Shown one piece after another: positions 7,278 to 26,422 of a stretch of DNA of 51,707 bases. Location: IMG/VR virus record IMGVR_UViG_3300034272_003143, positions 1 to 51,707 of that record; one strand, given 5' to 3'. This DNA comes from a virus. The notes under the pieces are model-generated. The model made no database searches and was not told where the DNA came from. It saw only the letters and a list, made by a program, of their open reading frames with translations. The position numbers and the translations under genes were made by a program. Numbering within the stretch: the first letter of the stretch is position 1; each line of letters starts with the position of its first letter.

Positions 7278-7278
7278 C

Positions 7279-7287: not shown

Positions 7288-7290
7288 TCT

Positions 7291-7555: not shown

Positions 7556-7830
7556 AAAAATCACACGAAGACATTATTCGAACTAAAGAAGTTCTTGCTC
7601 AAGACGCACTCAAGGTCGCCACTGAGGCTCTCGGCTACATTGAAGATGCGATGCCTGATGCCGGCATCCGTGATCTCATCACCATTTTCAATTCCGCTAT
7701 CAAAACCCACCGCGACCTTGTGGGCGACATCGTAGATCTTACAGCGCCCAAGGAGGGAGCTGCTGAGAAGGAGCTGGCTAAAGAGTACACCTCAAAAGTT
7801 GACGATCTGCTGAAGAAACTATCGTCATGA
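7552..7830 (+). CDS. Possible small terminase subunit
   Basis: 92 residues, strongly helical and charged, beginning KKSHEDIIRTKEVLAQDA and ending YTSKVDDLLKKLSS. Its stop overlaps the start of the large terminase (ATGA), the usual place for a small subunit that recognises phage DNA and feeds it to the motor. It is shorter than many small terminases and shows no clear helix-turn-helix, so the call rests on position, size and helical character. Confidence 0.5.
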   Translation: MKKSHEDIIRTKEVLAQDALKVATEALGYIEDAMPDAGIRDLITIFNSAIKTHRDLVGDIVDLTAPKEGAAEKELAKEYTSKVDDLLKKLSS

Positions 7831-9551
7831 GGCCAATCATCGAGCACGTCTCTCAGCTTGAAGAGCACTCGAGTTGGCGGAAATACCAACGCGGAATCCG
7901 AGAACTTGAGTTGCTCGAAGCGCCGAAAAGCATCATTCACGAGTTTAAGCACAAGGCTGCTCGTGACTGCTTTTTGGCATTCTGCGATATCATGAAAGCG
8001 GGTGACTTGCAGGTTGCAGAATTCCATGAGATTATCGGCTCCGCCTTCGAAGACTTAGCCACACGCAGACAGCGTCGTCTCATCGTTTCCTGTCCTCCAC
8101 GCTCAGGAAAGTCGATGTTGGCGACCATGTTCGTGGCATGGTTATTAGGACGCGATCAAAAAACCCAACACGTTATCGCATCATACGGCGCACAACTCTC
8201 GAGTAAGTTCCACAGAGAGGTGTGTCTGATGATGAAGTCAGCGGGTTTCAAAAAGGTTTTCCCTGAGTTTTTGGGTTTCAACCCAGACTCAAAATATGAC
8301 ATGATGGGTGGTGGCTACATTCTGGCCACGTCCGTGGGAGGCGTGCTGACTGGATTCACTGCTGGAACCACCGACATGGAGTCGCCAGGTGTTGGCGCCA
8401 TGGTGATTGACGACCCGTTGAAATCCTCCGACTCGAAGACGGCGATGGACACGCTGGCGAGTTGGTGGGAGGAACAGGCGTCCACTCGACGAACGAACCA
8501 TTGGTGTCAGATGGTGATCGCCACCCGATTCCACGAGAAGGACCTTCACGGCATTCTCATGGAGAAGGATGGGCTCTTCGATGAGGAGGAGAATAAGTTT
8601 GGTTGGAGGTGGCTGAACATTCAGGGGTTGTGTGAAGATGTCGTCAATGATCCGCTAGGGAGAAAACAGGGAGAATCACACTGGCCGACAAACTCGGCCT
8701 TCACAGTTGACATGCTTCTCTCTCAGAAGAGAGCGATGGGAAGCTTCAAGTTTGCCGCTCTCTATCAGGGAGTGCCATCATCTGACGAGGGTCAGATCAT
8801 CAAGCCCGGTTGGATTCACCGAATCGAAGAGGAAGACTGCCCAGAGTTTGACGTGACATGGCTGGCAGTTGACTGCGCGTTCTCAGAACGTGAAATGGCG
8901 GACGAGACCGCGGTGTGTGTCTGCGGAATCAACAAGGAGAACCCGGAAATTGTTTACGTCATCGACATTGTGACAGGACGGTGGGCGTTCCCTGACCTCA
9001 TCGAGGCGGTTAAGCACCTCTACCGTCTGTACAAAGCTCGAGTCCTCTGCATTGAGAAAGCCGCATCTGGTCAGTCCCTCATTCAAGTGTTGAGGCGAGA
9101 AGCAAAAATTCCCATCGAAGAGTTCAAGCCATTGAAGTCGAAGACCACGCGCCTCCAAGCTGTGTCTCCGCTCTTTGAGCAAGGTCGAATAAAGTTTGTG
9201 GTGGCACCTTACACTGACCCTTTTATTCGTGAACTCACGCAGTTTCCATATGTGGCGCATGACGACCGTACTGACTCAGTGGTCTGGGCACTACACTATT
9301 ATATTGAGCACATGGACGCAGGAAATCGAATGCTTGCGGAATCTATCATCACCCACCGCAAGTTTTTGGGATCAACAAGACGTGCTGAGGTTGATGATTC
9401 TGGAATTTTCACCACATTAGGGAAAACTCCAACTCGAACACTCAAACCAGAAGGCTGGGGTTTAGAAACTGCCGACATTGTAGAAACTACTAGCGAAAGG
9501 ATCATTCGTGGCAGACGCAGTCGAGGGCGGGGCGTTGGCTGGGATGGTTGA
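7827..9551 (+). CDS. terL: Terminase large subunit (packaging ATPase and nuclease)
   Basis: 574 residues. It cuts concatemeric DNA and pumps it into the procapsid. Walker A is at residues 88-96 (SCPPRSGKS), Walker B at about 188-197 (VGAMVIDDP), followed by a coupling-type motif (MVIATRFHEKDLHG). The C-terminal RNase H-like nuclease shows the first Asp in LAVDCAFSE (about 347) and the closing acidic motif DDRTDSVVWALHY (about 478-490). The length is normal for the family. The sequence does not read like T4 gp17; it looks closer to the terminase_6 type with a fused C-terminal nuclease. Start by ATGA coupling to the upstream gene. Confidence 0.95.
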   Translation: MRPIIEHVSQLEEHSSWRKYQRGIRELELLEAPKSIIHEFKHKAARDCFLAFCDIMKAGDLQVAEFHEIIGSAFEDLATRRQRRLIVSCPPRSGKSMLATMFVAWLLGRDQKTQHVIASYGAQLSSKFHREVCLMMKSAGFKKVFPEFLGFNPDSKYDMMGGGYILATSVGGVLTGFTAGTTDMESPGVGAMVIDDPLKSSDSKTAMDTLASWWEEQASTRRTNHWCQMVIATRFHEKDLHGILMEKDGLFDEEENKFGWRWLNIQGLCEDVVNDPLGRKQGESHWPTNSAFTVDMLLSQKRAMGSFKFAALYQGVPSSDEGQIIKPGWIHRIEEEDCPEFDVTWLAVDCAFSEREMADETAVCVCGINKENPEIVYVIDIVTGRWAFPDLIEAVKHLYRLYKARVLCIEKAASGQSLIQVLRREAKIPIEEFKPLKSKTTRLQAVSPLFEQGRIKFVVAPYTDPFIRELTQFPYVAHDDRTDSVVWALHYYIEHMDAGNRMLAESIITHRKFLGSTRRAEVDDSGIFTTLGKTPTRTLKPEGWGLETADIVETTSERIIRGRRSRGRGVGWDG

Positions 9552-9555
9552 ACTC

Positions 9556-9564
9556 GGGTAAAAC
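9556..9564 (+). promoter_or_regulatory. GGGTAAAAC element 3 (phoH unit)
   Basis: Five bases after the terL stop and 38 bases before the ATG at 9594. Confidence 0.7.
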
Positions 9565-9593
9565 TATTTGACCGCAGGTTTGGTTTATGCACC

Positions 9594-10406
9594 ATGACCT
9601 TATACAGCGGGCCATTTGGAGGTTATAATGTAGTCTGTCATTACAACATCAAAGCGATAAATTATCCCACCGATGCTACTCACTTCTTTATGGCTATTGC
9701 TGCAAGAGACAAGCGCAAATTGCGTCGTCAAGTTCAAGAGTTCGAGGCCCAATCTCGAGGAATGGACGTCCTGCCTTTTTACTCAAAGACGGACTCTCAG
9801 GAAAATCTCTGGAACTCCCTTAATCGCAACACTGTTACAATCGCAGTCGGACCGGCAGGTGTCGGTAAGACTATAGTCGCCCTTTGGTGGGGACTACAAG
9901 CGATTAAAGAAAACAAGATCCAAAAAATCTACTATCTCCGAAGCGATGTCGGATGCGCTCACCAACGTGGACGCGGCGCTTTACCAGGTACAATGGAAGA
10001 AAAAATGGCCCCGCTTGTGGGACCAGTGTATGATAACTTAGCGGTCATGACAAGATCGCAAGGTGCAAGTGAGTACCTGCTCAGCAAAAAAGTCATCGAG
10101 CCAATCCTTTTAGAGGATGTTCGAGGAAGAAGTTTTAATGACTGCTTAATCATCTTTGATGAAGCCCAAAACTCTCTGCCTGGAAATGTCAAAACCGCGC
10201 TGTCCAGGGTAGGCGAAAACGCTAAAATCATTGTAACGGGAGACACCAGACAAATTGATCTGGATGTATTCCGCTCTGACAACGGTTTGCTTGATAGCTA
10301 CCTTAGACTGGCAAACATCCCTTCCGTCGGAAGGGTTCAGTTTACTAAAGAAGACATCGTTCGTAACGGTGTCATTGCTGACATACTTTCTGCTTACGAC
10401 GACTAA
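9594..10406 (+). CDS. phoH: PhoH-like P-loop ATPase
   Basis: 270 residues from ATG 9594. Walker A GPAGVGKT is at residues 86-93, Walker B with LIIFDEAQN at about 185-193, and a sensor-like VTGDTRQIDLD follows; these define the PhoH family, which is very common in phages of cyanobacteria and other marine bacteria. Its role in phages is unsettled; a link to RNA metabolism or phosphate stress has been proposed. The start is uncertain: an in-frame ATG at 9691 (MAIAARDKRKLRRQVQEF) gives a more typical PhoH N-terminus, and a TATAAT lies between the two at 9624-9629. The gene follows a GGGTAAAAC element and leads a four-gene unit. Confidence 0.93.
   Translation: MTLYSGPFGGYNVVCHYNIKAINYPTDATHFFMAIAARDKRKLRRQVQEFEAQSRGMDVLPFYSKTDSQENLWNSLNRNTVTIAVGPAGVGKTIVALWWGLQAIKENKIQKIYYLRSDVGCAHQRGRGALPGTMEEKMAPLVGPVYDNLAVMTRSQGASEYLLSKKVIEPILLEDVRGRSFNDCLIIFDEAQNSLPGNVKTALSRVGENAKIIVTGDTRQIDLDVFRSDNGLLDSYLRLANIPSVGRVQFTKEDIVRNGVIADILSAYDD
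9624..9629 (+). promoter_or_regulatory. TATAAT near the phoH start
   Basis: Perfect -10-like hexamer between the two candidate phoH starts, with a weak TTATAC 18 bases upstream. A GGAGG at 9618-9622 sits before an ATG-TAG start-stop pair (9628). A promoter serving the 9691 start is possible. Confidence 0.35.
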
Positions 10407-10846
10407 TGCGAAAATCGACACGTTGGAATCGTTCCGCCCCACATGAGTTGGATGCCATGGTCATGGCGCCGGCTCTTCCTAATCTGCGCCCAATGGGAGT
10501 CACAAATCGTGACAACAACCCGTCCCCTTCACAGTCAAAAGTGGACACCGGCGTGTCTTTTTCCGAGTCAACTCGTGTCAATCTCGCAGATCCGCAAACG
10601 CTGGGAGTTTGGAATATGATGAAAAATGCCGATGATCCATCGCACGTGGCTTTCATCTACCGCTCCCAGTGCAACTCAAAACATTGCTCAATCCCAAAGG
10701 AACACCTTCGTCGCATGAGAGACGTGATGATTGCTGATATGCGGGAGAACGAGAAAAACTCCTCCTCTCGCAGAAAACAGACACAGGTCGGACGAAACGC
10801 TCCCACCTGGAATGATCCCCAACTCCAAATTCGTCGAGGAGCCTGA
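10406..10846 (+). CDS. Hypothetical protein
   Basis: 146 residues, start overlapping the phoH stop (TAATG). Low-complexity, Asn/Ser/Arg-rich N-terminus, then a more ordered part (VWNMMKNADDPSHVAFIYRS) containing C-x4-C (SQCNSKHCS) and a basic tail. No family recognised. Tight coupling puts it in the phoH unit; a virion or DNA-associated role is possible but not shown. Confidence 0.65.
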   Translation: MRKSTRWNRSAPHELDAMVMAPALPNLRPMGVTNRDNNPSPSQSKVDTGVSFSESTRVNLADPQTLGVWNMMKNADDPSHVAFIYRSQCNSKHCSIPKEHLRRMRDVMIADMRENEKNSSSRRKQTQVGRNAPTWNDPQLQIRRGA

Positions 10847-11172
10847 TGGATTACACAGTTCCATGCGCCAAATCGAAAGTCCATCCGGACGGGATTTGCA
10901 GAAAGAAACTCCATAAAAACATTCACTCCGGACTCCACAAACTCGTGGAACGTCTCGACAATGAGGCGATGGAGGAACAGCTCCAACAACAGAAGGAGCA
11001 ATTTGACGAGCAGCGCCGCCATCTCGACCTTCAGGAAAAAATGCTGGGTGTGGGAATAGGAACACACCGCGTCATCAAAGACATGCGGAAGAACAAACCC
11101 AAAGTTGAACCCTTCATCCCGGGTGCCGGAAGCGGTAAGCCCGACAAGCCCAAAAACAATAAGCAACAATGA
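10846..11172 (+). CDS. Hypothetical coiled-coil protein
   Basis: 108 residues with TGATG coupling to the gene before. Residues about 25-65 form a Gln/Glu-rich coiled coil (EEQLQQQKEQFDEQRRHLDL). The C-terminus is Lys/Pro-rich and disordered. N-terminal CxxxK and C residues (VPCAKSK, GICRKKLH) are noted but do not make a clear metal site. Possibly a scaffold or head-associated helper; function unknown. Confidence 0.65.
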   Translation: MDYTVPCAKSKVHPDGICRKKLHKNIHSGLHKLVERLDNEAMEEQLQQQKEQFDEQRRHLDLQEKMLGVGIGTHRVIKDMRKNKPKVEPFIPGAGSGKPDKPKNNKQQ

Positions 11173-11510
11173 ACTCTTACTTTTCACCCGAGGCTCTCGA
11201 AGCGCTGCAACAGGCTTACGAGATGCAACTTACGCCTGAGGAACAGGATTTTGATGCCATCACTGGCCTCCCCACAAATGTCGTAAGCGGCACATCTCCC
11301 TGGCACAATTCTGTCGATCTGTGGCGCTATCCCGACGGTAAAAACAAACTCGAGACATCCCCCATCATGTACCGTGCGGATGAGGATGAGTATGACGATG
11401 TTATTTCCGAGTATGAGGGAGAGGATGACGAATACGAAGAGGATGAGACCCTGAGTGATGAAGAGATTGATAATCTGATCGAGGAGCTTCTATACTCCGA
11501 TGAGGAATAA
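11169..11510 (+). CDS. Hypothetical acidic protein
   Basis: 113 residues, ATGA-coupled. The second half is extremely acidic (EYEGEDDEYEEDETLSDEE), ending NLIEELLYSDEE. Strongly acidic short phage proteins can mimic DNA or serve as scaffold parts; nothing here decides between these. It ends the phoH unit one base before a GGGTAAAAC element. Confidence 0.65.
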   Translation: MNSYFSPEALEALQQAYEMQLTPEEQDFDAITGLPTNVVSGTSPWHNSVDLWRYPDGKNKLETSPIMYRADEDEYDDVISEYEGEDDEYEEDETLSDEEIDNLIEELLYSDEE

Positions 11511-11511
11511 A

Positions 11512-11520
11512 GGGTAAAAC
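11512..11520 (+). promoter_or_regulatory. GGGTAAAAC element 4
   Basis: Two bases after a stop and 29 bases from the ATG at 11541. Confidence 0.7.
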
Positions 11521-11540
11521 CAACCAGCTTTGCTGCTCTT

Positions 11541-12233
11541 ATGGACGGTGTTGTTCTCCCCGGTGCGGGCGGGATGATTAACTCATCGAATGCCCAATCG
11601 GGTCCTGGTCTCAAGAAGGAGAACAGGGAGGACCGGAAGTGGGGGCAGGGGACAAATAAGGAAGGTTTTATGACCATCGGGAAAGTTGATCATTCCGACA
11701 AACGTCTGAATGCCCACAAGGAAAATCGTGAAAAGCGGGTGAATCTTATCAACCGATCGATGAACGAGTACGCTGACGGTGGTCAGGCCATGAGTGAGAT
11801 CATGGGACGTAAAACCCTCCGCGCCACTCAGTTCCGCGAGCTGAAGTCCAAAGAGTACAAGTTCTCAGAGGAGGATCTCAACGCTGAGTATCTGGCGATG
11901 GGGTCATACAAGGAGGGCTGCTCATGTGGAACATGCGCTTCCTGCCGAGCCAAGAAAAAAGAGGAGGCTGAGTACCGCGAGTGGTCCACTGAGAAGCGGA
12001 AGGAACTCTCGAAAGGTGACATTAAAGGTCACTTTGCTGGCCCTGACCAGTCATTCCCCATCTCAAACGCCACCGACGTGAAGGCGGCTTGGTCATCTGT
12101 TGGCCGCGCGAAAAACCCTCGCGCTGTCATGAAGAGCATCATTCGCATCGCAAAAGAACTTGGCCTGGAATCAGCACTCCCAGAGTCCGTCAAACAACGT
12201 ATGGAAGAAGGTGGTTCAGGACTCCCAGGATGA
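11541..12233 (+). CDS. Hypothetical protein with CxC zinc-knuckle-like cluster and helical C-terminal domain
   Basis: 230 residues. Residues about 124-136 hold a dense cysteine cluster (CSCGTCASCRAKKKEE) that could bind a metal. The last 70 residues (GHFAGPDQSFPISNATDVKA to KSIIRIAKELGLESALPES) resemble a small helical domain seen in phage and plasmid proteins and described as a domain of unknown function (DUF6582-like, from memory). The gene opens a unit 20 bases after a GGGTAAAAC element. It probably belongs to the head or a virion-internal set; not proven. Confidence 0.65.
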   Translation: MDGVVLPGAGGMINSSNAQSGPGLKKENREDRKWGQGTNKEGFMTIGKVDHSDKRLNAHKENREKRVNLINRSMNEYADGGQAMSEIMGRKTLRATQFRELKSKEYKFSEEDLNAEYLAMGSYKEGCSCGTCASCRAKKKEEAEYREWSTEKRKELSKGDIKGHFAGPDQSFPISNATDVKAAWSSVGRAKNPRAVMKSIIRIAKELGLESALPESVKQRMEEGGSGLPG

Positions 12234-12520
12234 TCTCGATCACTGCACTGTTGGCTGTCGCCGGTCCTGTGACCGGCGTTCTTCTTTCAGTCATTCTGTA
12301 TTTTTCACGGAAGACTCTTGAAGACGTGTCCTCATCATTGAAAAGTGTTGAGTCGACGCTTGTGGAACTTCGTGTGGAAGTTCCTAAGTCTTACGTCACA
12401 AAAGAAGAACTCCTCTCCCACATGAAAGCCGAGGAAACTTGGCACAGCCACATTAATTCCCAACTTCGTGACATTCGCGAAGAAATGTCCGCCCTACGTG
12501 ATTGGAGCCACCACCGATGA
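12230..12520 (+). CDS. Small membrane protein with coiled coil (holin- or spanin-like architecture)
   Basis: 96 residues from ATG 12230, chosen because ATGA overlaps the upstream stop. Residues 2-25 form one clear membrane segment (ITALLAVAGPVTGVLLSVIL), followed by a charged coiled coil (about 27-90). A single N-terminal membrane helix plus a soluble coil fits a holin-associated protein, an inner-membrane spanin or an inner-membrane anchor. No endolysin lies next to it in this window, so the lysis idea is weak. Confidence 0.65.
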   Translation: MISITALLAVAGPVTGVLLSVILYFSRKTLEDVSSSLKSVESTLVELRVEVPKSYVTKEELLSHMKAEETWHSHINSQLRDIREEMSALRDWSHHR

Positions 12521-13272
12521 ACCTTGAAGATTACGACTTTGACCGCCTTCTCGGGTTGGGCTTCACTGAGAAAGCTACAGGGGATTTGAAGGACGCTTGT
12601 TGGAAGGGCTATACTGCCATCGGTACCAAAAAGAAAGGTGGTCGCACAGTACCAAACTGCGTCCCCATCAAAAAGTCGGAGCACTCTGAGTCAGATGACT
12701 TCCGCCAGGTTCAAATGGGCGGCGATTTGCTCGTTGATGTAGAGTGTGATACGAATCTCCCGGTCTCCACACCTGCTGAGCTTCGTGAGGCCAAGATGCG
12801 GAAGCGTGTGGTTGCAGCTCAGAACAAGGCCCAGCGCCAAGAAGCTCGTGAACAGGCCAAGCGCGCTCGTGAGGCGAAGAGGGCGAGTCGCGAAGCGAAG
12901 AAGATGCAGCAAGGATTCGCTGAAGAAATGAAGCGCAAACCACTCATTGCTGGCCCAAGTGCGGGTTCGCCAAGTTTTGCTGAGGGGAAAGGAACTGGAA
13001 AGCCATGCGGCGACTCGCACATCTCCGCAAAGAAGACTTGCAAAGTTGGCCAGGGATCAGTGAAGCGTGATCCAAGCAAAGATGTCAAGCGCGGTAACAC
13101 TCTGATTGGCACCTCTCCGAAGAACATGTCGATTGACAATCTCAATGAGGTGAAGAAGGAATACGAAGACTACAAGAAGAAGTTCGGTCATCGTCCTGAC
13201 CTCAAAAACGTGATGGACGCTTATGAGAAGCGCATCGCAGACGCTGAAAAAGCTATCAAGGAGATGGACTGA
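12517..13272 (+). CDS. Hypothetical charged protein with two cysteine-containing motifs
   Basis: 251 residues from ATG 12517 (ATGA coupling). An N-terminal motif reads CWKGYTAIGTKKKGGRTVPN, followed by CVP; this type of motif is common in phage proteins of unknown function. Residues about 90-140 are an Arg/Lys/Glu/Ala-rich helix. Around residue 160 is GKPCGDSHISAKKTCKVG, a motif repeated at the start of the kinase-fold protein at 14921. The C-terminus is a charged helix pair. Likely a virion-internal or head-associated protein; function unknown. Confidence 0.65.
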   Translation: MNLEDYDFDRLLGLGFTEKATGDLKDACWKGYTAIGTKKKGGRTVPNCVPIKKSEHSESDDFRQVQMGGDLLVDVECDTNLPVSTPAELREAKMRKRVVAAQNKAQRQEAREQAKRAREAKRASREAKKMQQGFAEEMKRKPLIAGPSAGSPSFAEGKGTGKPCGDSHISAKKTCKVGQGSVKRDPSKDVKRGNTLIGTSPKNMSIDNLNEVKKEYEDYKKKFGHRPDLKNVMDAYEKRIADAEKAIKEMD

Positions 13273-13637
13273 TGTTCGGCTCCTTCCCTGACGACCTCCT
13301 CAAGCAATTCAAAGAGGATTACGCTGAGCGCCAGGCTTTTGCCTTAGGTTATCCTCAGCAGACCTACTCTGATAAGGAGTCACTTGAGTGTAATAAGCCA
13401 AAGGCTGAAACCCACAATGGGAAAAGCCATGTGGTAAAAGCTTGCTATGATGGCGCGCCCGAAGGAGGCAAACTCATCCGATTCGGCCAAGCTGGAGCCT
13501 CTACCGCAGGCAAACCCAAAGAGGGCGAGTCAGACCGCATGAAAGCGAGGCGTGCGTCTTTCAAAGCCCGCCACGGCCGAAACATCGCCAAAGGAAAGTC
13601 ATCCGCAGCTTACTGGGCGGACAAGGTTAAATGGTAA
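13272..13637 (+). CDS. Hypothetical basic protein with ARH..SAAYWADKVKW motif
   Basis: 121 residues, TGATG coupled. The C-terminal half (GGKLIRFGQAGAS, then RRASFKARHGRNIAKGKSSA and AYWADKVKW) is a recognisable short module found in head-region proteins of large phages; I know it only as a conserved region of unknown function. Very basic, which would suit binding DNA or acidic partners. Confidence 0.65.
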   Translation: MFGSFPDDLLKQFKEDYAERQAFALGYPQQTYSDKESLECNKPKAETHNGKSHVVKACYDGAPEGGKLIRFGQAGASTAGKPKEGESDRMKARRASFKARHGRNIAKGKSSAAYWADKVKW

Positions 13638-13641
13638 CACA

Positions 13642-14208
13642 ATGAACACTTTCAGTCTCCCCTCAGTCGACCACCTCATCGAAGGTGTTCACTACACAAT
13701 CGTCGATTGGTCCTTTGCCGAAGGCCGCGCACGAGACCGCGGTCTTGAGACCAATATGCCTTCCCGTGGAATGGCTTCTACCTTTGCTGATGGGCAGGAA
13801 TGTCCAGAGGGCGAGAAGATGATTTTTGGCATGTGCCGCAAAACGGGTCAGAAACAAGGCGAAAAGGAATTTGACTCCTCAAAGAAAACCAAACAGGAGG
13901 AGGAAGGCGAAGCCCAAGCGAAGAAGGAAGGTTCCGACTTCAAAAACAACAAAATGATCAAAGACGTCAAAACAGGCAAGAAAATGGGTTGGGCCATGAA
14001 AGATGGTAAACCCGTGCTTGTGGAGTGGGGGTCAGTTGCGGGCGAGAAGAAGGTAGGCCCCAAGCAACCAGCTCCAAAACCCGGAACAAAGCCTAAGGAA
14101 AAGCCTAAGCCAGAACAACCCAAGCCCCAACAGTCAGCCTCTTCAGCGCCCGACAACGCCGACAGCTTGGTGCGGGAAGAGAAAAAGCGTGATCTCCTCC
14201 CAGGGTAA
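13642..14208 (+). CDS. Hypothetical Lys/Pro-rich protein
   Basis: 188 residues from ATG 13642, four bases after the preceding stop; a longer in-frame start exists at 13552 but lies wholly inside the previous gene. A short ordered N-terminus (residues 1-65) contains C-x13-C (ECPEGEKMIFGMCRKTG). The rest is a low-complexity Lys/Glu/Pro/Gln tail (KPKEKPKPEQPKPQQ). Its stop codon TAA is the TAA inside a GGGTAAAAC element. Function unknown; probably disordered. Confidence 0.6.
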   Translation: MNTFSLPSVDHLIEGVHYTIVDWSFAEGRARDRGLETNMPSRGMASTFADGQECPEGEKMIFGMCRKTGQKQGEKEFDSSKKTKQEEEGEAQAKKEGSDFKNNKMIKDVKTGKKMGWAMKDGKPVLVEWGSVAGEKKVGPKQPAPKPGTKPKEKPKPEQPKPQQSASSAPDNADSLVREEKKRDLLPG

Positions 14209-14211
14209 AAC
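14203..14211 (+). promoter_or_regulatory. GGGTAAAAC element 5
   Basis: The TAA of the upstream gene (14206-14208) is part of the element; next ATG 29 bases on. Confidence 0.7.
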
Positions 14212-14231
14212 AGATCTAAAGCTCCCGAACA

Positions 14232-14921
14232 ATGCGTAAAGATTCCATCGCCCCCGGTGCCTACCAAAAGGCGCTGGAAATGTACCAGTTTTCAGAGAAA
14301 GGCTTCCACGGTGCTGGCGTCGACGCTGACGACGTTCCGGTGTTGGCACCTCAAGTGTCCAAACTGAAAAAAGAGGACGAGCCCTGGCAGCCCAACTCCG
14401 CTTTCTACGGCAACCAACCACGTGGCAGTGGCCCCTCGGCTTTCAACTACGGTGAGGAGCAGGGCACTGGTGAGTACAACTCCATGCAGGGCCAACTCAC
14501 TAAGCTCATGGATATGCAGGAAAACCTGAGTGGGCAACTCCGTCGTGCTCGCCAACTCGGCAATTTCAAAGAGGAGCATCGTATTGTTCAAGAGCGCAAT
14601 AACGTTCTGAAAGCCATCTCTGCCATCGAAGCAAAGATGATGGTAAATGACAATGGCCGCTTCCGTCGTGACATGAACGACGGCATGATGTACGAATCGC
14701 AAAATCATCAAGAGGAAGAAAATCCCTTCCGTGATTTTGTTGAGGCCATCGACGAAAACGATCAAAAAATCGCCGCACTTGAGGCTGCGATGTTGGAGTT
14801 TTCAGAAAGCAAGAACCTAAGGTCAGCAGGTGGAGATGATTCTGCAGATCCTGGCCAATCCTACTCCCCTGAGGACGACGAGGAAGACGACGAAGACGAA
14901 GAAACTCTGGACGAAGAGTGA
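14232..14921 (+). CDS. Hypothetical protein with central coiled coil and acidic tail
   Basis: 229 residues. Residues about 80-140 form a coiled coil (MQGQLTKLMDMQENLSGQLR); the last 20 residues are almost all Asp/Glu. This shape (flexible start, coil, acidic tail) is typical of scaffold-like or virion-internal phage proteins. It leads a unit 20 bases after a GGGTAAAAC element, with the kinase-fold gene directly behind it (TGATG). Confidence 0.6.
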   Translation: MRKDSIAPGAYQKALEMYQFSEKGFHGAGVDADDVPVLAPQVSKLKKEDEPWQPNSAFYGNQPRGSGPSAFNYGEEQGTGEYNSMQGQLTKLMDMQENLSGQLRRARQLGNFKEEHRIVQERNNVLKAISAIEAKMMVNDNGRFRRDMNDGMMYESQNHQEEENPFRDFVEAIDENDQKIAALEAAMLEFSESKNLRSAGGDDSADPGQSYSPEDDEEDDEDEETLDEE

Positions 14922-16555
14922 TGGCTAGAGCTGGGAAGGGGAAACCGTGCGGAGATTCGTTTATCTCCGCGAGCAAAAAGTGCAACATCGGCCAACTTTC
15001 CCAGCGCCTGAACAAGGGAATGCTGGCGAAGGCGACGACTGAGAAGCTGAAAGATTATCTCAATCGTGCGCCGTACAAATATCAGAGAGACGTCATTAAG
15101 GCGGAGCTCGACCGTCGTGCTGGGAAGGCTCCGTCAGTTCCCTCAGACTTGAAGAAACAGCTCGCCGCTCTCGCCGGACCTACCAACCGTGGGCTTCAAC
15201 GAGAGAAGATGGACAGTCTGCCGCCACAGAGGGACAGTGAGCCTCCTGGCCTCGCCATCCTACGGAGAATGCGGGAGAAGGGGGAGAATGAACCTTCCGC
15301 GAAGCCTGCCGTCAAAGACGGTGATCTGTCCCGGCAGATCAACGCGGGATTCCTCAAAAACGCGGCGAAGGAGAAACTCGAGGAGTATCTTCAGCGGGCT
15401 CCCTACAAATATCAGCGAGACAAGATTCAGGCTGCGCTCAATGAGCGTGCGAAAATGGATGGCGCAAAACCTGAGGGTGGAAATCTGTCCAAAGGTGGGA
15501 AGTGGGGAAAGTGGACCGACGAGAAACTTCAGGATCAACTTGATGAGGCGAAAAGACGGGCGAAGCTCGATCAGATCGACGAAATTGAGAAAGAACTCAA
15601 GCGTCGTGGAGTGGAGCCGCGTGCGATGGAACCCGCGGGCCGTCCGAAGGGAATGAACAGCTGGGAGCTCCAGAGCGCTGTTAGCATTGATGATCGCATT
15701 GAGAGAGACACGACTAAGGCACTTGGCGACAGCACATTTGTGTGGGGCAACTCGCTGGTGAGAGAAGCGAAAGTGTTGGGTTCCGGTGCGTATGGCACCG
15801 CGATCAAGGACAAGGGAGGTGACGTGGTCAAGCGTGGGACCATCGGCGACAACGAAGCTGACCTCATTGATAAGATCGGGAAAGCTGACCTCGGTCCGAG
15901 ACTCATCGCGGCTCAACTCGATGGTCCAGCTGGTCCTCCGAACACCTCCACGGGCCGTGTGGCCATGACACTCGTTCCAGGAACTCCCATCGGTAGGAGA
16001 GCTGGCGACGCGCCCATCGGAAAGACGGGTAAAGTGGTCTCAGATGCCTACTGGGAAGCTCGTGCCAAACTTCACCGCATGGGCATCGCCCACAACGACA
16101 TGCACATCGAGAACGTCTTCGTCGATCGCAAGGGCAATGGCCGATTCGTGGACATGGGCATGGCTCAGGACAATCCCAAAGCGGCACTCGCCGAGGCAAT
16201 GGGCGCCTTCACCAGGGGACCGATGGGGACCTCCATTGGAAGCGACACTGGCGATTGGCAGGTGAGAAGGTGGGATGGCACTGCTGGACGGGACATGACT
16301 AATGCCGAGAGGTCAAACAGTCCAGTCGTTCGACAGGAGTTCGCCCGGAGATTTCCCACCGCGGCGAAGGTGCTCCAAAACAAAGAAAAGGCTATATCTA
16401 AGATGAAGAGCTTCGGTCTGTCCGATCAGGACGTGGCCGACATCATAGGCCATGGCATCAGAAAGGACAATGACTCCTTCGAGAAGGGTGCCATGGGCAG
16501 GCTCACCAATGACCAAGCCCTGAAAATCATCAACATTCTCTACGATGGCATCTAA
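14921..16555 (+). CDS. Protein kinase-fold virion-type protein with N-terminal helical repeats
   Basis: 544 residues; ATG 14921 is preferred over GTG 14918 because TGATG couples it to the upstream stop. The N-terminus has GKPCGDSFISASKKC. Two copies of a 45-residue helical repeat (EKLKDYLNRAPYKYQRD and EKLEEYLQRAPYKYQRD) and a degenerate third follow. The C-terminal half is kinase-like: glycine loop VLGSGAYGTA (about 286-295), a VVKR candidate lysine (about 305), hinge-like MTLVPGTPIG, catalytic loop GIAHNDMHIENVFVD (about 388-402) and FVDMGMAQD in place of DFG. The key Asp, Asn and second Asp are present, so it may be active, perhaps on host or virion proteins. An atypical, RIO- or aminoglycoside-kinase-like fold is my reading. 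Confidence 0.75.
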   Translation: MARAGKGKPCGDSFISASKKCNIGQLSQRLNKGMLAKATTEKLKDYLNRAPYKYQRDVIKAELDRRAGKAPSVPSDLKKQLAALAGPTNRGLQREKMDSLPPQRDSEPPGLAILRRMREKGENEPSAKPAVKDGDLSRQINAGFLKNAAKEKLEEYLQRAPYKYQRDKIQAALNERAKMDGAKPEGGNLSKGGKWGKWTDEKLQDQLDEAKRRAKLDQIDEIEKELKRRGVEPRAMEPAGRPKGMNSWELQSAVSIDDRIERDTTKALGDSTFVWGNSLVREAKVLGSGAYGTAIKDKGGDVVKRGTIGDNEADLIDKIGKADLGPRLIAAQLDGPAGPPNTSTGRVAMTLVPGTPIGRRAGDAPIGKTGKVVSDAYWEARAKLHRMGIAHNDMHIENVFVDRKGNGRFVDMGMAQDNPKAALAEAMGAFTRGPMGTSIGSDTGDWQVRRWDGTAGRDMTNAERSNSPVVRQEFARRFPTAAKVLQNKEKAISKMKSFGLSDQDVADIIGHGIRKDNDSFEKGAMGRLTNDQALKIINILYDGI

Positions 16556-16712
16556 ATCTGACGACAAGAAGTACATCGCACTGATGGATAAGTACAAGCA
16601 GAATCGTGGAAAGGATCCGCAAGGTGCCATGAAGTACCTTGATGCCGCGATGGAGCTTAGCGCTCGTGGTAATGTGAGTGACGACGCCCGAGTCGGTGCC
16701 GCCTATCTCTGA
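16545..16712 (+). CDS. Small hypothetical helical protein
   Basis: 55 residues, overlapping the last 11 bases of the kinase-fold gene. Sequence begins ASKSDDKKYIALMDKYKQNR and ends SDDARVGAAYL. It reads as a compact helical hairpin with normal amino-acid use. It is followed by two bases and a variant of the GGGTAAAAC element. Function unknown. Confidence 0.5.
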   Translation: MASKSDDKKYIALMDKYKQNRGKDPQGAMKYLDAAMELSARGNVSDDARVGAAYL

Positions 16713-16714
16713 CG

Positions 16715-16723
16715 GGGTAAGAG
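16715..16723 (+). promoter_or_regulatory. Variant element GGGTAAGAG
   Basis: Two mismatches to the common form, placed just after a stop and 54 bases before the giant fibre gene. A small 5-bp hairpin (16732-16747) follows it. Confidence 0.45.
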
Positions 16724-16768
16724 TGTTGAAAGCCCGTCTTCACGGGCACGCACTCGCTCTTCAGCAAC

Positions 16769-19700
16769 ATGGCCGTACGGATCGTTCTCAAGCGTTCAAG
16801 CATCCCGAACAAGCGCCCTAACGCGGATCTACTGGATCCAGGCGAACTTGCTCTTAATACAAACGCTCTCACTCCAGGCCTGTTTTTCGAAGCGGACAAC
16901 AATTCGATTGTCAAGGTTGGTCCGACCGCGGTCGGTGAGAATCCCCCAACATTAACGCCCTCTCTCGGCGAAACTTACTACGACACCGCAAATAACAGTT
17001 TGAGTGTTGGGACAATTGATCCCGAGACCGCGGCTCAGGTGTGGAAAGAGGTTTCGGCCCCATACCTCGGAGGCACAAACGGATACGTGGTGTTTGTTGC
17101 GCCCGAATTCCCCACTTCTTCCGACGCCATCAAGAATGACGGTCAATCGAGTCCTTTCCGCAGCTTAAACCGCGCTGTCATCGAAATCGCAAAGCAGTCA
17201 ATTGCGACTCAGAACGAAAGCGACGCTGGGAAAAACAATCGATTCACCATTGTGGTCTCCAACGGGATCTGTCCCGTCTACAATGGTCCTGGCCTTCCCC
17301 TTCCAGTAGACACAAACGCGGACAATATCCCAGAATTCAATGTGGTTTTTGAGGGCAATTCTGCAAATTTGCCGGACGTTCTCAATCTACAACAATTCAA
17401 CCCAGAAACGGGTGGTCTTCTCGTGCCACGCGGAACGAGCATCATTGGCACAGACCTACGTAAAGTAGAACTCCGCCCCTCTTACGTACCGACATACAAA
17501 AACCCTTCAACTGGCCAAGGAAGCAACCAGCCCATTACGTCGATTCTGAAATGGACCGGAAATTCCTACGTCTCTAGTTTTACAGTACGAGACAAGAGAT
17601 CTCTTGTTAGCATCTCCGAGTTTACAGTAGGACCAGCTGGAGAAGGCGTATTTGTATCAAGTCGCCCGCACTGTTTCAACTTCAATGATCGAGTTTTCTT
17701 CAGTTTCGCGCCAGGAACCAATACTACACCTTTGTCGCCTAACAGCGCGAGTATTTTAAGCGGATATTATTTCGTCAAGCCGCTTGGTGTTGACACCTTT
17801 GAGCTTTCATTCACAGATCTCACTGGTGAACCAAACTATGTTGAGCGCTCACAACTTCCAGCTTCTTCACAAGGCCTTGGATATTTGGCTGAGTGCTATT
17901 GGCAACCATACTCCCACCACCGCCTGCGCTCGATTTACTCGGCTTCGAAAGCAGAACTCGACGAGTTTTACACCAAAGTTCAATTGGCCTTCCCCGAGTT
18001 TTTCCTTGGAAGCATCAATCAAGCTGAAGTTGTTAATCCAGGCGAAACTGAAATTGTAGGACCAGTCCCTAATTCGTTGCTCGATTCTTTCAAAGCAAAT
18101 ACGACAGACAACTCTTCCCCGTACGTGCAAAATGTCTCAGTTCGTTCTAACTATGGACTGTGTGGTTTAGAGAATGACGGTCTGATCACAAGTGGTTTCC
18201 GTTCGGCTTTGGGAATGGCGTTCACCGTGGCGTCAATTCAAAATGATCCCTCGGCGTATGAAATTTACACGACGGTTCAAGATCCGGCTACTTTGAAGCG
18301 AATTACTGATTGGTTTCCGCTTCAATATGCAACTTGGGCCACTCTTCCCTCCGCGCAACGTCCTGCAAATCAATCGCTGGTCCCAATTGAAGCGCAAATT
18401 GAATTGCTCAATGCGACGGACATCATTAACATCCGTTACTACTACTCGACTCTGAAATCCAATGATGGCAAGTCTTTCGGTATTCCCGACTTTGACAATG
18501 ACTTCCGTCACTTCGCAGTCAGGGCAACTAATAATGCGTATATCCAAGTAGAGACCGGGTGGACGATCGGCTGCGCCGTTGGCTTCTGGTCGACGTTTGG
18601 TGGAAGTGTAACGGCTGAAAACTGCGCAAGTAATTTTGGTTCGAATGCGCTTCGATCGGAAGGATTTACGGGAATTGGCGGCGTTAGCAGTTTTGCTGAT
18701 CCAGCGGACAGTGGATTTACATTCGGTGGCATTCGTATGCCTCAGATTGTTCTTCCAAGTGACACAACTCCAAAACTTACTTTAGAACTGGGAGCAAATA
18801 TCCTTTCAGTTATCAATCAAGCAAATGGTGTTCAGGAAATTACAATTGGCAGCGGATTTCTTCCAGTAAACATTTTGCCATTCTCCTTGGAGCCAGGGAC
18901 TGCAGTTTATTCGCAGCTTGGAAGCATTGAATTTCGGGCTTTCTTTGTGAAAGATAAAACTGTGAAGTTTTTGGAGAATGGCGAAGCCGTTTTGTACGTA
19001 CGCTCAATTGACTCAACATTCCCTCTAGGCAACTTGAGCACAATTCCTCAAATGAAGAATTGGACTCCTCCATTCATCAAAAGGTGGAATGACCCACGGT
19101 CAATTGGCGAAACTGCATACTCACTCATTCTTGAGAACTCGCAGGCAACCCACAGAAATCCACAGTTGGGCAGCGTTCTTCGTTTGAACCAAAACAATGC
19201 TCTTGCCTCATCTCTTCTTCGTCCGAATGTCCAATTTGACCCAGGTCCTAATGGCGGATGGGGCAAAGTATTTAGCGTGGCCATTGCAGATAGCGAAGTA
19301 AGTGGAATTGCTCCGCAATACAATGAAGTCTTGCTAAATCGAAATAGTAGCAATACTTATTTTGTAAGCCTTATTTTGTGCGATTCTGGGCGGCCGTGGA
19401 TTGAGGAAAAGAACACGGCACACGGTGAGTATGTAACTTACAACAACAGGAACTGGTACGCAGCATCAAACGATGAGTGGAGTTCAATCTACTACACTGC
19501 TGAAGGCGCAGTGACCGGGGGCATAAAATTGCCACCCACAAACTTTGACTCATCTTATGCTGTAACATACTGCATTGAAAATCAAGAACCTGTTGAAGAT
19601 GCTTATCAAGGGGAGTATGCACCAGATTCATTGATTTCACTGTATCCAAATGGCACTTATTTTAGGGGATCACAGCCAAATCGCGACAACTATGGATTTG

Positions 19701-22492
19701 ATTTCGTTGCCAACATCGATAACGGAACGCCTGACTTTGGCTTGTTGCGCCATAATGTGTCCACGGGTCTATCGTTTACTCCCGAGGAAGAAATCAAGCC
19801 AGAAACCACGGTAATTCGCCTCACATCTGTCGCCAACATTCCCAATCCGCTCACCAATTTTGTGGTGATGAGCATCACTGACGGAACCGCTGGTAGAAAG
19901 GAATTTGTTCAAGTACTTAAGGTAGACACCCCCAACCTTTCAATCACGGTCATTCGAGGAGTTTATGACACTCTACAGACTTCTTCTTGGCCTTTGAGCG
20001 GCACAGTGCTGTATCTTCAAAAAGCCGCTGATGAAGTGTTGGCCTCAGACTACGACTTTGATTGGTCACCTAGCAAATCAGCGATGATTCGCTTCCTCGA
20101 GGTGATGGGATACCCAATCGCGGACATTCAAAAAGTCCTGAGTCCCAAGGCCGCTTCTAGGCGCTCGCTCACCCTGAGTGGAATTTCTGCTTCGCCTAAA
20201 GACGGCTTTGCCTTGGCAACTGGGCCATGGCCATTTGAGTTTAGTACTTCATCTCAGACCGACGCTCTTTCACACGGCTTTCATAGTGTTGGCCGTCTTA
20301 ATTACGCAAAAGGCCTTCCAAAATACCTAAAGTCGGAAATCTCTACAAAACAATACTACGATTTCCTGTCTACTCAAATTTGGTCAGGCGCTGGTTCCAT
20401 CACCGGCGGCGACGAACTCGGAAACCTGCCCACATCGGGAGTTTACACTCAAACCGCCACTGGCCGACCCTACGGTACATACACCTCTTCAATCACTGAC
20501 TACAGCCGCACCGGCCCTACTTCTGGAAGCAGCGATGGTGGTGGTGGTGGTACCGGTGATGGTACCGTGCAAGCCGTATACACTGGTGAAGGTTTAGTTG
20601 GTGGGCCGATCACAATTCAGGGAACGATCTCCCTTCTTCCCCCTGTTGACGATAAAATCGGTGGTGTTAAAGCCGGCAAAAACATTCAGATCCAGACAGA
20701 CGGGACAATTGATGCGACTGGTGGAACCGTTGAGTCCATTGATTTCACAACAGGTCTGGCGGTGTTCTCTAATGACCAAAATGGGGGAACAATCACCACT
20801 TCAGGTACAGTAGCACTCAAAGTCGCCACTGACACTGAAATTGGTGGGATTATCCCGGGAATTGGTTTCGAGTTCGATCCTGATACCGGTGTAACCGATC
20901 TTAAAATCACATCGGATCTCAACGGGCAGAGCAAGGATACTGCCATCAGCCAGTTTGCCGCTAACATTCTAGACAAGAGCATTGAGGCCCTCACTGGTGC
21001 CAACGTTCTCGCTGGAACTTACGACGCTCGAGCTGGACAAATTGTCAGTGTCACTCCGATCGGCGCATCGAAGGGATTTGTGATCGGGCAGACTCCTCCG
21101 CCCCCATCTATCTCAATCGATAACTACTATTTGATCGTCACGGTTGGCGGCCCGAATCCCAAACCTCCCCTTCCCCCAGGTTTTGCGGGAGCAGGCGATT
21201 GGTTCATTTGCCAGGCGGAGGCGGGTGTCAATCCGGCGTGGATTCTGATTGATTTTGAGAATATTTCCGCGGCCGCTGACAACATCTCAGTGAGGCTGAT
21301 CCCAGGGATCGACACCGCGGGTAACGTTCAGTCGGCACTTGAAGCCATCGAGCTCCAAGTTCAGGACAGGATCGAATTTGCCGCAGTCGATCCCACCACA
21401 GGAAATGACGCTCTCAATGTTTCAATCAGCGCGCCAGTCCCAACCTCAAATGACGGAACAACACTGAGCCTGAGCCTCAAAACCGCAAGCGAAACTGATT
21501 GGGGAGCAACCAAGCTCACCTCAGACTTCACTGGAACTTCAAAGTCACTCGCACTGACCCAATTTGCTGCGAATCAGCTCAACACAAAAGTTGATGCCCT
21601 CACCGGATCTAACGTTTTGGCCGGTACCTACAGCGCGTTGAATGGTACTGTTCTTACAGTCACACCTGCTGGTTCTCCTTATCTGACGGTTGGACAGAAT
21701 TGTCCGCCTGCAGACCAGGTTCCGGACAACTACTACGTTCTTGTGACGAAATCAGGAACACAGGGTCCTCCCGGAGCCGTGGTTCCTTCGACCGGAATTC
21801 AGTCCAGCGACTGGTTTATCGTACAGCGAGATGGCGCCACGCCAACTTGGATAACGATTGACTTTGAGAATGACCGTACAGTCACGGCAAGTCAAGTCAT
21901 TCTCCAACCTTCCATTCCTGGCCTCAACTCAGGAAATGTTCAAGGGGCACTTCAGGAGCTCGAAACGAAAGCCGAACAGTCAATCTACGATATCGTTTCT
22001 TCGACCTCGAACACAAGCGGAATTCGCGTTCAAAACTCTGCCGAGACTCCACAAGGTCGAACAACGACTCTGAGCCTACTTCCTGCCACTGGTTCGGACT
22101 TGGGAGGAGTCTTTGTTATTCCCGGCACAGGCCTCAATCTCTCGCCATCAAATGGAGCTTTGGGTCTGTCTATTGCGACAACAAATCTACTTGGTGGCAT
22201 CAAAGTTGGTGGTGGCCTTGATATAGCGGCCGACGGAACCCTCTCAGTTGCTGGTTTGGGCGGAATTCGCGTTCTTGACGATCTGTCTTCTAAGTTTGAT
22301 GGTATCACAACCCAATTCACTTTGTCTTTGGTTGGAACCCCCTTCACCCCAATCGCTTCTCAATACGTTCTTATCGTGGTCGGTGGTGTTGTCCAAGGAA
22401 CACCCACAAACTACTCTGTTACCGGTACCACAATTACCTTTACATCTCCCCCTCCTTCAGGTGCCAGCTTCTACGGCATCACCCTCGGGTAA
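16769..22492 (+). CDS. Giant modular tail fibre / virion structural protein
   Basis: 1907 residues. N-terminal docking type (LLDPGELALNTNALTPGLFF) shared with 22542-24035. Residues about 105-560 resemble a right-handed beta-helix structural protein of cyanophages (SPFRSLNRAVIEIAKQS; LLVPRGTSIIGTDLRKVELR). A long unassigned beta-rich region follows to about 1240, then a Gly-rich linker (DGGGGGTGDG), repeats of the type IGGVKAGKNIQIQTDGTI, and two copies of the GTYDA module (about 1405-1500 and 1610-1700). The tip ends VLIVVGGVVQGTPTNYSV to ASFYGITLG, the same C-terminal module as in four other genes here. Its stop codon lies inside a GGGTAAAAC element. A central baseplate-attached fibre is plausible. 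Confidence 0.88.
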   Translation: MAVRIVLKRSSIPNKRPNADLLDPGELALNTNALTPGLFFEADNNSIVKVGPTAVGENPPTLTPSLGETYYDTANNSLSVGTIDPETAAQVWKEVSAPYLGGTNGYVVFVAPEFPTSSDAIKNDGQSSPFRSLNRAVIEIAKQSIATQNESDAGKNNRFTIVVSNGICPVYNGPGLPLPVDTNADNIPEFNVVFEGNSANLPDVLNLQQFNPETGGLLVPRGTSIIGTDLRKVELRPSYVPTYKNPSTGQGSNQPITSILKWTGNSYVSSFTVRDKRSLVSISEFTVGPAGEGVFVSSRPHCFNFNDRVFFSFAPGTNTTPLSPNSASILSGYYFVKPLGVDTFELSFTDLTGEPNYVERSQLPASSQGLGYLAECYWQPYSHHRLRSIYSASKAELDEFYTKVQLAFPEFFLGSINQAEVVNPGETEIVGPVPNSLLDSFKANTTDNSSPYVQNVSVRSNYGLCGLENDGLITSGFRSALGMAFTVASIQNDPSAYEIYTTVQDPATLKRITDWFPLQYATWATLPSAQRPANQSLVPIEAQIELLNATDIINIRYYYSTLKSNDGKSFGIPDFDNDFRHFAVRATNNAYIQVETGWTIGCAVGFWSTFGGSVTAENCASNFGSNALRSEGFTGIGGVSSFADPADSGFTFGGIRMPQIVLPSDTTPKLTLELGANILSVINQANGVQEITIGSGFLPVNILPFSLEPGTAVYSQLGSIEFRAFFVKDKTVKFLENGEAVLYVRSIDSTFPLGNLSTIPQMKNWTPPFIKRWNDPRSIGETAYSLILENSQATHRNPQLGSVLRLNQNNALASSLLRPNVQFDPGPNGGWGKVFSVAIADSEVSGIAPQYNEVLLNRNSSNTYFVSLILCDSGRPWIEEKNTAHGEYVTYNNRNWYAASNDEWSSIYYTAEGAVTGGIKLPPTNFDSSYAVTYCIENQEPVEDAYQGEYAPDSLISLYPNGTYFRGSQPNRDNYGFDFVANIDNGTPDFGLLRHNVSTGLSFTPEEEIKPETTVIRLTSVANIPNPLTNFVVMSITDGTAGRKEFVQVLKVDTPNLSITVIRGVYDTLQTSSWPLSGTVLYLQKAADEVLASDYDFDWSPSKSAMIRFLEVMGYPIADIQKVLSPKAASRRSLTLSGISASPKDGFALATGPWPFEFSTSSQTDALSHGFHSVGRLNYAKGLPKYLKSEISTKQYYDFLSTQIWSGAGSITGGDELGNLPTSGVYTQTATGRPYGTYTSSITDYSRTGPTSGSSDGGGGGTGDGTVQAVYTGEGLVGGPITIQGTISLLPPVDDKIGGVKAGKNIQIQTDGTIDATGGTVESIDFTTGLAVFSNDQNGGTITTSGTVALKVATDTEIGGIIPGIGFEFDPDTGVTDLKITSDLNGQSKDTAISQFAANILDKSIEALTGANVLAGTYDARAGQIVSVTPIGASKGFVIGQTPPPPSISIDNYYLIVTVGGPNPKPPLPPGFAGAGDWFICQAEAGVNPAWILIDFENISAAADNISVRLIPGIDTAGNVQSALEAIELQVQDRIEFAAVDPTTGNDALNVSISAPVPTSNDGTTLSLSLKTASETDWGATKLTSDFTGTSKSLALTQFAANQLNTKVDALTGSNVLAGTYSALNGTVLTVTPAGSPYLTVGQNCPPADQVPDNYYVLVTKSGTQGPPGAVVPSTGIQSSDWFIVQRDGATPTWITIDFENDRTVTASQVILQPSIPGLNSGNVQGALQELETKAEQSIYDIVSSTSNTSGIRVQNSAETPQGRTTTLSLLPATGSDLGGVFVIPGTGLNLSPSNGALGLSIATTNLLGGIKVGGGLDIAADGTLSVAGLGGIRVLDDLSSKFDGITTQFTLSLVGTPFTPIASQYVLIVVGGVVQGTPTNYSVTGTTITFTSPPPSGASFYGITLG

Positions 22493-22541: not shown

Positions 22542-24035
22542 ATGGCCGTATCTGCTACCCAGATTCAACTCCTTCGGTCGTCAATCCCTAACTGCCGCCC
22601 TGACCCGACCCAACTGCTGCCGGGTCAGCCTGCTGTAAACACGGATGCCGCCCAACCCGGACTTTTCTTCAAGGACACGAACGGTGGACTTGTCAAAGCT
22701 GGTCCGTGCACAGTAAGTGCTGTCGCTCCAAATGTTTCCCCAGCAGGATTTCCTGGTAATACTAAGGGAGAATTTTGGTTTAACGTTAATGAGCAACGTC
22801 TCTACGTTTGGACTGGAGCGGCGTGGGTTCGTTCCGACCCGTCTGAGATTGGCTTCACCAAAGTCATCATTCAAACCACTCCCCCTGATTTGGACATCTA
22901 TCCAAACGGTGCACTGTGGTGGAACGACTACAACGGGGAGATGTACGTTCTGTACGAAGACCCGAACAATCGCCAGTGGGTGCAAGTTGGCGCAGGTGGC
23001 TCAGCAGGTAGCGGTGCAGTAATCATCTCCGATCAGCAGCCTGACCCAGCTATCACGGCCGCTGGAACACTTTGGTGGAATGACTCCACCGGATCCTTGT
23101 TCGTTCTCTACAACGATGGTGGACCTACACGGCTTTGGATCCAAATCGCCGGCGCTGGCGCAATCAATGCCGGACAAGGCGGGTCCGTGTCGAAGATCGA
23201 CACGGGAACTGGTCTCACAACCCTAAATGGTCAACCAATCACCACTCAAGGCACACTTATCCTTAAGCCAGCCTCTGCCAACGAAATTGGTGGTGTGAAG
23301 CCAGGGATCAATGTCACAATCGATCCGGACGGAACAATTAATATGGCTGGCCCCGGAACGGGCACAGTATCTCAAATTCAGACTGGCCCCGGTATCACCG
23401 GCGGTCCAATCACCACAACTGGCACCATCGGTCTTGCCTCAGCCACTTCAAGTCAAATCGGTGGAGTGAAGCCTGGGGCTGGCACTGGGGTCACGGGCGG
23501 CGGCGCTCTCTTCATCGAGGCTGCAACACCTTCTTCGATTGGTGGAGTGATCGTTGGTACGGGCCTGAACGTCTCGTCAAGCGGTGTATTGGCCGTTGAC
23601 CCCGTTCCTCCTGGTTTCCTCCCCGCTGGAACCGTCCAGTGGTATGCCGGCCAAACTGCACCAGCTGGCTGGTTCTATTGCAATGGCGCAGTATTTGACA
23701 CGGCGACATACCCAGCACTTTATGCCGCTATTGGGCGGATTTATACGGGCATTGCCATTCCTTCAACGCAGTTCCAAGTCCCAGATCTTCGTGGTCAGTT
23801 CCTCCGTGGTTGGGACAACCGTTCTTCCGGAGGTACAGATAGCGGACGAGTTTTTGGTTCGTACCAGAATGACGAGTTCAAGAGCCACACTCACACCTAC
23901 ACGGACAACCTAGCCCCAGGTTTTGGTCTGACATTCACAGGTAACTCTGCAGCTCAAGACAATACAACCGGTGCAACTGGCGGCAGTGAGACCCGTCCGA
24001 AAAACTGCGCAATGCTTCCAATCATCAAAGTCTGA
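22542..24035 (+). CDS. Tail fibre with docking domain, LWWND modules and collar tip
   Basis: 497 residues. N-terminus [20 protein letters not shown] matches the docking type of 16769-22492. Then two LWWND modules ([34 protein letters not shown]), three IGGVKPG-type repeats, and a tail-collar domain ([40 protein letters not shown]) ending [18 protein letters not shown]. It opens the unit that also contains the next four fibres. The collar fold forms trimers in T4 short tail fibres; the receptor is unknown. Confidence 0.88.
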
Positions 24036-24037
24036 CC

Positions 24038-26421: not shown

Positions 26422-26422
26422 C

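Follow-up and report, generated by a model that had tools for sequence, protein, structure and literature searches.

A candidate virion-carried kinase with an N-terminal cysteine tag and a small partner gene in an uncultured virus related to cyanophage S-CBWM1

Organization of the kinase locus

The window analysed here is the whole 51,707-nucleotide stretch of IMG/VR record IMGVR_UViG_3300034272_003143. An earlier note on this DNA had placed a kinase-fold protein at positions 15776-16160. Its motifs do lie there in frame, but the interval holds only the motif core of an ORF that starts at 14918 or 14921 and ends at 16555, and both an N-terminal tag and a small partner gene, here called S, lie outside it. 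The GTG at 14918 would give 545 aa with the same stop; the ATG at 14921, which lies within a TGATG overlap with the stop of an acidic upstream gene, is the more likely start. The features used below are:

12502..13272, + strand: second tag-bearing ORF of the block (GKPCGDSHISAKKTCKVG and CWKGYTAIGTKKKGGRTVPNCVP)
14232..14921, + strand: acidic helical protein, whose stop TGA overlaps the kinase ATG (TGATG)
14921..16555, + strand: kinase gene, 544 aa from the ATG
14936..14992, + strand: N-terminal Cys tag KGKPCGDSFISASKKCNIG, a two-Cys variant of tag A, modelled by AlphaFold2 (AF2) as a short hairpin with modest confidence
14996..15121, + strand: helical repeat module 1 (..EKLKDYLNRAPYKYQRDVIKAELDRRA), AF2 helices 33-67
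15326..15460, + strand: helical repeat module 2 (..EKLEEYLQRAPYKYQRDKIQAALNERA), AF2 helices 143-182
15641..16552, + strand: kinase domain, residues 242-545, from alignment, AF2, Foldseek and VIA-align
16545..16712, + strand: S, a 55-aa three-helix partner, whose first 11 nt lie within the 3' end of the kinase gene
16769..22492, + strand: baseplate wedge/tail fibre-like protein following the kinase-S pair, homologue of S-CBWM1 gp116

Because the gene ends overlap (TGATG; 11 nt), the acidic protein, the kinase and S are probably co-translated; the order of acidic protein and kinase recurs in the four closest relatives of the window (L003-L006). The setting in a block of virion-protein genes, behind an acidic protein, had been described correctly: TerL (7827) and PhoH (9594) are followed by small ORFs, by the acidic gene at 14232-14921 and, after the kinase-S pair, by the large protein matching baseplate wedge and tail fibre proteins.

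The kinase domain

The window kinase carries in frame the motifs GSGAYG (residues 288-293), HNDMHIEN (392-399) and FVDMG (410-414), and its catalytic features comprise the G-loop at 288-293, K305, E313, HND 392-394, N399 and DMG 412-414. Across 82 aligned domain rows, D394 and D412 were each conserved in 81, H392 in 80, and N399 and E313 each in 78, and K305 was found in 73 with 7 rows gapped. The middle residue of DMG (413) is F in 41, M in 20, L in 14, Y in 4 and W in 2 of the 81 rows that have a letter there. Because of this variety DMG is normal in the family, and the earlier reading of DMG in place of DFG as a notable deviation was rejected.

Two PHROG kinase families matched the protein with modest scores (phrog_18305, 'kinase', E 1.8e-5; another, E 9.6e-4), as did Pfam Pkinase (E 2.6e-4, below Pfam's cut-off). 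In the AF2 model, built on 46 sequences, most of the kinase domain (the C-terminal 300 residues) has pLDDT values of about 94-99, and the C-lobe helices are modelled at 374-541. In Foldseek, 905 PDB chains matched at E<=1e-3, with kinases accounting for all 50 of the 50 matches listed, and the nonsynonymous/synonymous ratio of the domain against four relatives was 0.11-0.27. Given these PHROG and Pfam scores, the model confidence, the Foldseek matches and the ratios, we do not regard the kinase match as due to chance. The fold, G-loop, K, E, HxD, N and D-x-G that define the protein kinase superfamily were all present, and the kinase fold with its catalytic residues, already proposed in the earlier note, is supported by AF2, Foldseek, VIA-align and alignment alike; judged by modelled fold and motifs, the protein is near certainly a kinase.

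Among the VIA-align matches listed, YabT and the archaeal RIO-type TkArkI had Z 10.0 and Rio2 had 9.2, and many other kinases at Z 8.6-9.5 tied with the RIO-type ones. The RIO1 profile, which is above cut-off for S-CBWM1 gp113, was not listed at E<=1 for the window kinase, and HipA was absent among its listed Pfam, Foldseek and VIA-align matches. The modelled domain appears to fit the kinase superfamily at large, and its best structural matches listed include both RIO-type and bacterial kinases. We also considered a small-molecule kinase, similar to APH or choline kinase and phosphorylating a metabolite. Relatives are annotated as APH- or ChoK-like, and the APH profile, above cut-off in S-CBWM1 gp113, matched the window kinase at E 0.0095 (16.1 bits against a cut-off of 23.2). 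This reading is nevertheless unlikely, as protein kinases make up most of the structural matches listed and the best PDB profile matches are GCN2-type kinases and WbdD. Two further candidates were rejected: an anti-phage defence kinase, for which PADLOC gave just weak catalytic-core matches, mostly to PD-T4-6 (best 1.1e-4), and a cellular origin of the kinase, for which one scan of genome contigs yielded two weak loci.

Relationship to cyanophage kinases

TerL of the window has its nearest match in cyanophage S-CBWM1 (55% identical, with 92% of the query covered), followed by S-TIM5-like phages at 32%, and because of this relationship to a cyanophage the host is probably cyanobacterial. We compared the window ORFs of 6039-16769 with S-CBWM1 gp90-gp118 and found the matches to be collinear: the kinase corresponds to gp113 (E 6e-12), S to gp114 (E 0.001) and the large protein to gp116, with some small window ORFs lacking a clear counterpart. 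On sequence and gene order the window kinase is a positional orthologue of gp113. The latter (MG450654, 'RIO-like putative serine/threonine kinase') is 32% identical to it over 142 aa (E as above). Like the window kinase, it sits after the TerL-PhoH block of small ORFs and ahead of the baseplate wedge gene, and it has a small partner (gp114) and, if an upstream start is used, an N-terminal Cys tag. It differs in its length (annotated at 286 aa, or 316 aa if that start is taken), in the lack of the two helical repeats, and in having the four-Cys tag A and DWG where the window kinase has the two-Cys variant and DMG.

The kinase domain is homologous to a cyanophage virion kinase family exemplified by S-CBWM1 gp113 and S-CREM2 gp14 and, as in that family, S comes next on the 3' side. 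In the T4-like cluster C phages S-CREM2 (gp14/gp13) and S-CRM01 (g130, 'PKN8') a homologous kinase is followed by a homologous S as in the window, but these phages are T4-like, hold the pair at another genomic place, and have T4-type N-termini and no Cys tags. S-TIM5 encodes a kinase-like gp208 without a tag or virion note, and the kinases of S-N03 and S-H34 are named PknB, with no virion claim in the available portion of the source (PMC7472177).

These gene neighbourhoods bear on whether the kinase might instead act during assembly, in the prohead or baseplate pathway, phosphorylating virion proteins such as the acidic neighbour or the tail fibre and not host proteins. It does adjoin a baseplate/tail-fibre gene in the window, in S-CBWM1 and in L003-L006, which also have the coupled acidic protein. 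In T4-like cluster C, however, the kinase-S pair lies away from structural genes and near recombination and replication genes, and the several kinase copies of some phages suit effectors better than an assembly role, which we consider improbable. One such array, L034:2049-9377, has five family kinases, each with tag A, plus two S genes.

The partner S

A tblastn search with the 55-aa S returned 12 phage records, all from T4-like cluster C Synechococcus phages and all also among the 14 kinase-positive phage records; wherever such a record was inspected, S immediately followed the kinase on its 3' side. With an S profile run over all collected loci, S was found in 91, of which 89 also have a family kinase, and reversed-sequence controls gave 0 hits. 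It lies directly 3' of 52 of the 98 distinct family kinase ORFs, and for the other 46 it is elsewhere or was not found. S is predicted to form three helices (pLDDT 92.8), and a known fold was rejected for it, as the PDB gave no match at E<=1e-3 and 9 at E<=10. The nonsynonymous/synonymous ratio of S against four relatives was 0.04-0.21. Over 24 pairs, kinase and S distances correlated with r 0.72 (0/5000 permutations), a correlation confounded by shared descent, which alone could give it.

A small, downstream gene co-diverging with the kinase would also be expected if S were an immunity protein guarding the producing cell from a polymorphic-toxin-like kinase effector, and family members do occur as C-terminal domains of MuF proteins, one of them with Zeta, a layout of phage-delivered effectors (PMC5512222). 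Such a toxin-immunity pair seems doubtful to us: S has a T4-type N-terminus in 8/8 T4-like phages and one virion peptide in S-CREM2, and a cell protector need not be packaged.

Virion association in relatives

That cyanophages package kinases is a known idea, because such kinases have been reported in virions of S-CREM2, S-CRM01, S-TIM5 and S-CBWM1, and the window gene is a new member of it. In S-CREM2 virions gp14 was identified by 21 unique peptides, at 23.6% coverage (PMC10665884, Table 3), along with gp12, gp13 (that is, S, on one peptide) and gp15 (PMC10665884). The same paper cites the kinases in S-CRM01, S-TIM5 and S-CBWM1 virions, those of S-CBWM1 being APH, ChoK and Rio2, and NMNAT is also reported from S-CBWM1 virions (PMC10665884; PMC9602691). 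The packaging suggested in the earlier note is therefore backed by virion homologues (S-CREM2 gp14; the S-CBWM1 kinases by citation) and by many virion-linked forms of the family, whereas for the window virus, an uncultured 51.7-kb record, we infer it, as we do the substrate. By orthology the window kinase is a probable virion protein.

In phage T4, internal proteins are directed to the head by the capsid targeting sequence, a short peptide at their N-terminus (PMC9026906); the window tag is a different sequence with two cysteines, and no cleavage of it is known. We defined a T4-type motif as [FYLIMVW]xxF[ILM]xE within the first 20 residues. It was found in 4 of 219 S-CREM2 proteins, namely a SAM hydrolase, S, the kinase and a cytidylyltransferase, all of them virion-detected, and in none of the 167 virion-undetected proteins (Fisher 0.003), the expression having been written after three of the four cases had been seen. 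Shuffled N-termini gave a mean of 0.6 motifs per genome with a maximum of 4 in 500 shuffles, and a relaxed form was not specific (6/52 vs 6/167). Among T4-like phages the motif is present in S in all eight (7 distinct N-termini) and strictly in the kinase in 2/8. Outside these phages S lacked it in 10/10 cases, and it is absent from the window S and, by reading, from the N-terminus of the window kinase.

The S-CREM2 authors themselves raise the possibility that virion enzymes might be carry-over in CsCl fractions (PMC10665884), in which case the window protein could be an ordinary late cytoplasmic kinase and virion detection in relatives contamination only. Against this, every S-CREM2 protein with a T4-type N-terminus was virion-detected, and MuF fusions put the same kinase domain in heads; we regard contamination as a highly improbable explanation.

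Nine long family proteins were scanned for fusions: six have a MuF domain (PF04233, above Pfam cut-off), one has a portal-like region and one is in a tape-measure-like protein (weaker, PHROG E 1.7e-5). MuF proteins with a C-terminal family kinase were seen in L043, L050, L052, L055, L056 and L064, and in that of L052 a Zeta domain separates the two. Enzymes carried in the head and injected with DNA have been described as MuF effector fusions and polyvalent proteins (PMC5512222); the family of the window kinase includes MuF fusions, although the window kinase itself is not MuF-fused. The polyvalent-protein kinases of that description are without the C-terminal subdomain, whereas the AF2 model of the window kinase keeps the C-lobe helices. 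One kinase family thus appears to be attached to virions in diverse ways, through T4-type N-termini, MuF, portal or tape-measure fusions, and short Cys tags.

Cysteine tags

At the same position of the kinase, the window and L005 have a tag of GKPCGxSFI type and L003, L004 and L006 have tag B (RCVRPNGTAYGTGGKCRKG). Since a short-peptide search of phages for the window-type tag found just two weak records, we turned to pattern scans. Over the full 139,069 bases of S-CBWM1 these found tag A five times, always forward and inside a gene (gp106, gp113, gp161, gp162 and gp174), and tag B twice, in gp39 (NMNAT) and gp165, with 0 hits in the backward controls. Only seven proteins are tagged, and they include all three virion-reported kinases and the virion-reported NMNAT. 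The gp113, gp161 and gp162 products are RIO-, ChoK- and APH-like kinases respectively, gp174 is annotated as a virion structural protein, and gp106 has HNH_5 at 0.03 as its sole Pfam match. The virion kinases named for S-CBWM1 (PMC10665884) do not include gp173, which is PknB-like and untagged. For gp113 and gp161, in-frame upstream starts (L014:15375-15465 and L010:14683-14740) add the N-terminal Cys tag; the deposited starts are probably too far downstream.

For a wider count we took 335 distinct ORFs of at least 150 aa with their N-terminus in the locus, from loci picked by kinase homology (L016-L065). Tag A was found in 15/54 kinases and 2/281 other ORFs, and tag B in 17/54 and 23/281, against 0/335 in the reversed-sequence control; because many of these sequences are closely related, the counts are not independent events. 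Twenty-one of the 54 kinases match no tag or targeting expression, several of them MuF fusions, and two (in L018 and L020) carry the two-Cys variant of the window, which the tag A expression misses.

Of the 111 tag A stretches 80 were listed, and 47 of their ORFs, each at least 140 aa long, were scanned with Pfam. Pkinase matched in 8 and APH in 8 (overlapping), HNH_4 matched in 3 and ART-PolyVal in 2, and Zeta, nuclease and portal matches came up once each. Many short tag A ORFs have no kinase, nuclease or other such domain and no obvious cargo role, ruling out tag A as a cargo-only signal. In tag B ORFs (106, of which 83 distinct) the median distance between the longest start and the tag is 36 residues, and the tag is preceded by a stretch like FSEEAL..F(S/A)E. 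Tag B contigs overlapped kinase contigs in 21 of 57 cases (input: 80/111 tag A stretches, 73/73 tag B stretches and all 60 kinase loci), an overlap that is not independent because several kinases carry tag B themselves.

Three further resemblances were noted in the window. The N-terminus MRKDSIAPGAYQKALEMYQFSE of the acidic protein (14232-14921) resembles tag B proteins (MRKDRFTDEAL..FSE) without the tag. Several PHROGs of unknown function match 12502-13272 through the motif CWKGYTAIGTKKKGGRTVPNCVP. A CPEG..C motif, perhaps another tag type, is shared by 13630-14208 and the virion-detected S-CREM2 gp15 (ECPEGEKMIFGMC / ECPEGYKWNKKLGKC).

Proposed role of the kinase

We think it fairly probable that the product of the window gene is a kinase carried in the virion, a member of the S-CBWM1 gp113 / S-CREM2 gp14 family that is loaded through its tag and acts on the host early. 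The kinase would be produced late, alongside virion proteins, and be loaded into particles via the N-terminal tag and the helical repeats; S may accompany the kinase or keep it quiet; and at infection the kinase would enter the cell and phosphorylate host targets ahead of new phage proteins. Ejection, the roles of tag and S, and protein substrates are steps that we infer, and a function as an early effector is plausible. This explanation is supported by the gp103-gp116 synteny with S-CBWM1, virion-detected homologues, conserved catalytic residues, T4-type N-termini, MuF fusions and the kinase-S correlation. Weighing against it are the uncultured 51.7-kb record, possible CsCl carry-over, the single peptide for S in S-CREM2, the 46/98 kinases with S not adjacent, the strict motif in only 2/8 T4-like kinases, and tag A on non-cargo.

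A broader and more tentative possibility is that the kinase-S pair is a mobile cargo unit re-addressed in each lineage, by T4-type peptides in T4-like phages, by Cys tags in the S-CBWM1-like lineage and by MuF, portal or tape-measure fusion elsewhere. Cys tags A and B would then serve as a virion-loading code, portable and swappable, that kinases, NMNAT, nuclease-like and many unknown proteins share and that is the non-T4 equivalent of the T4 capsid targeting sequence. We found no prior description of the partner S or of swapped virion addresses in the open-access literature searched. That cyanophage particles contain kinases has been observed repeatedly, with no loading route, partner or target named in the portions of that literature examined. 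A conserved partner and a tag that marks reported virion enzymes make the loader, the function of S and the first host proteins hit testable, and should the tags prove to load cargo, the contents of particles of uncultured phages could be foreseen from sequence.

Other ORFs

The S-CREM2 gp12 entry (OR473000 gp12) is annotated as CRISPR-Cas9, a name that looks doubtful because no Pfam domain matched at E<=0.05. In the window, the C-terminal part of 13272-13637 is related to phrog_7595, which covers roseophages, cyanophages and others (48 records). Positions 22542-40366 hold a long series of tail-fibre and collar-like ORFs, many matching the same fibre families, and after this block, at 43228-45606, lie thymidylate synthase, exonuclease/polymerase-like and 2OG-Fe(II) oxygenase genes.
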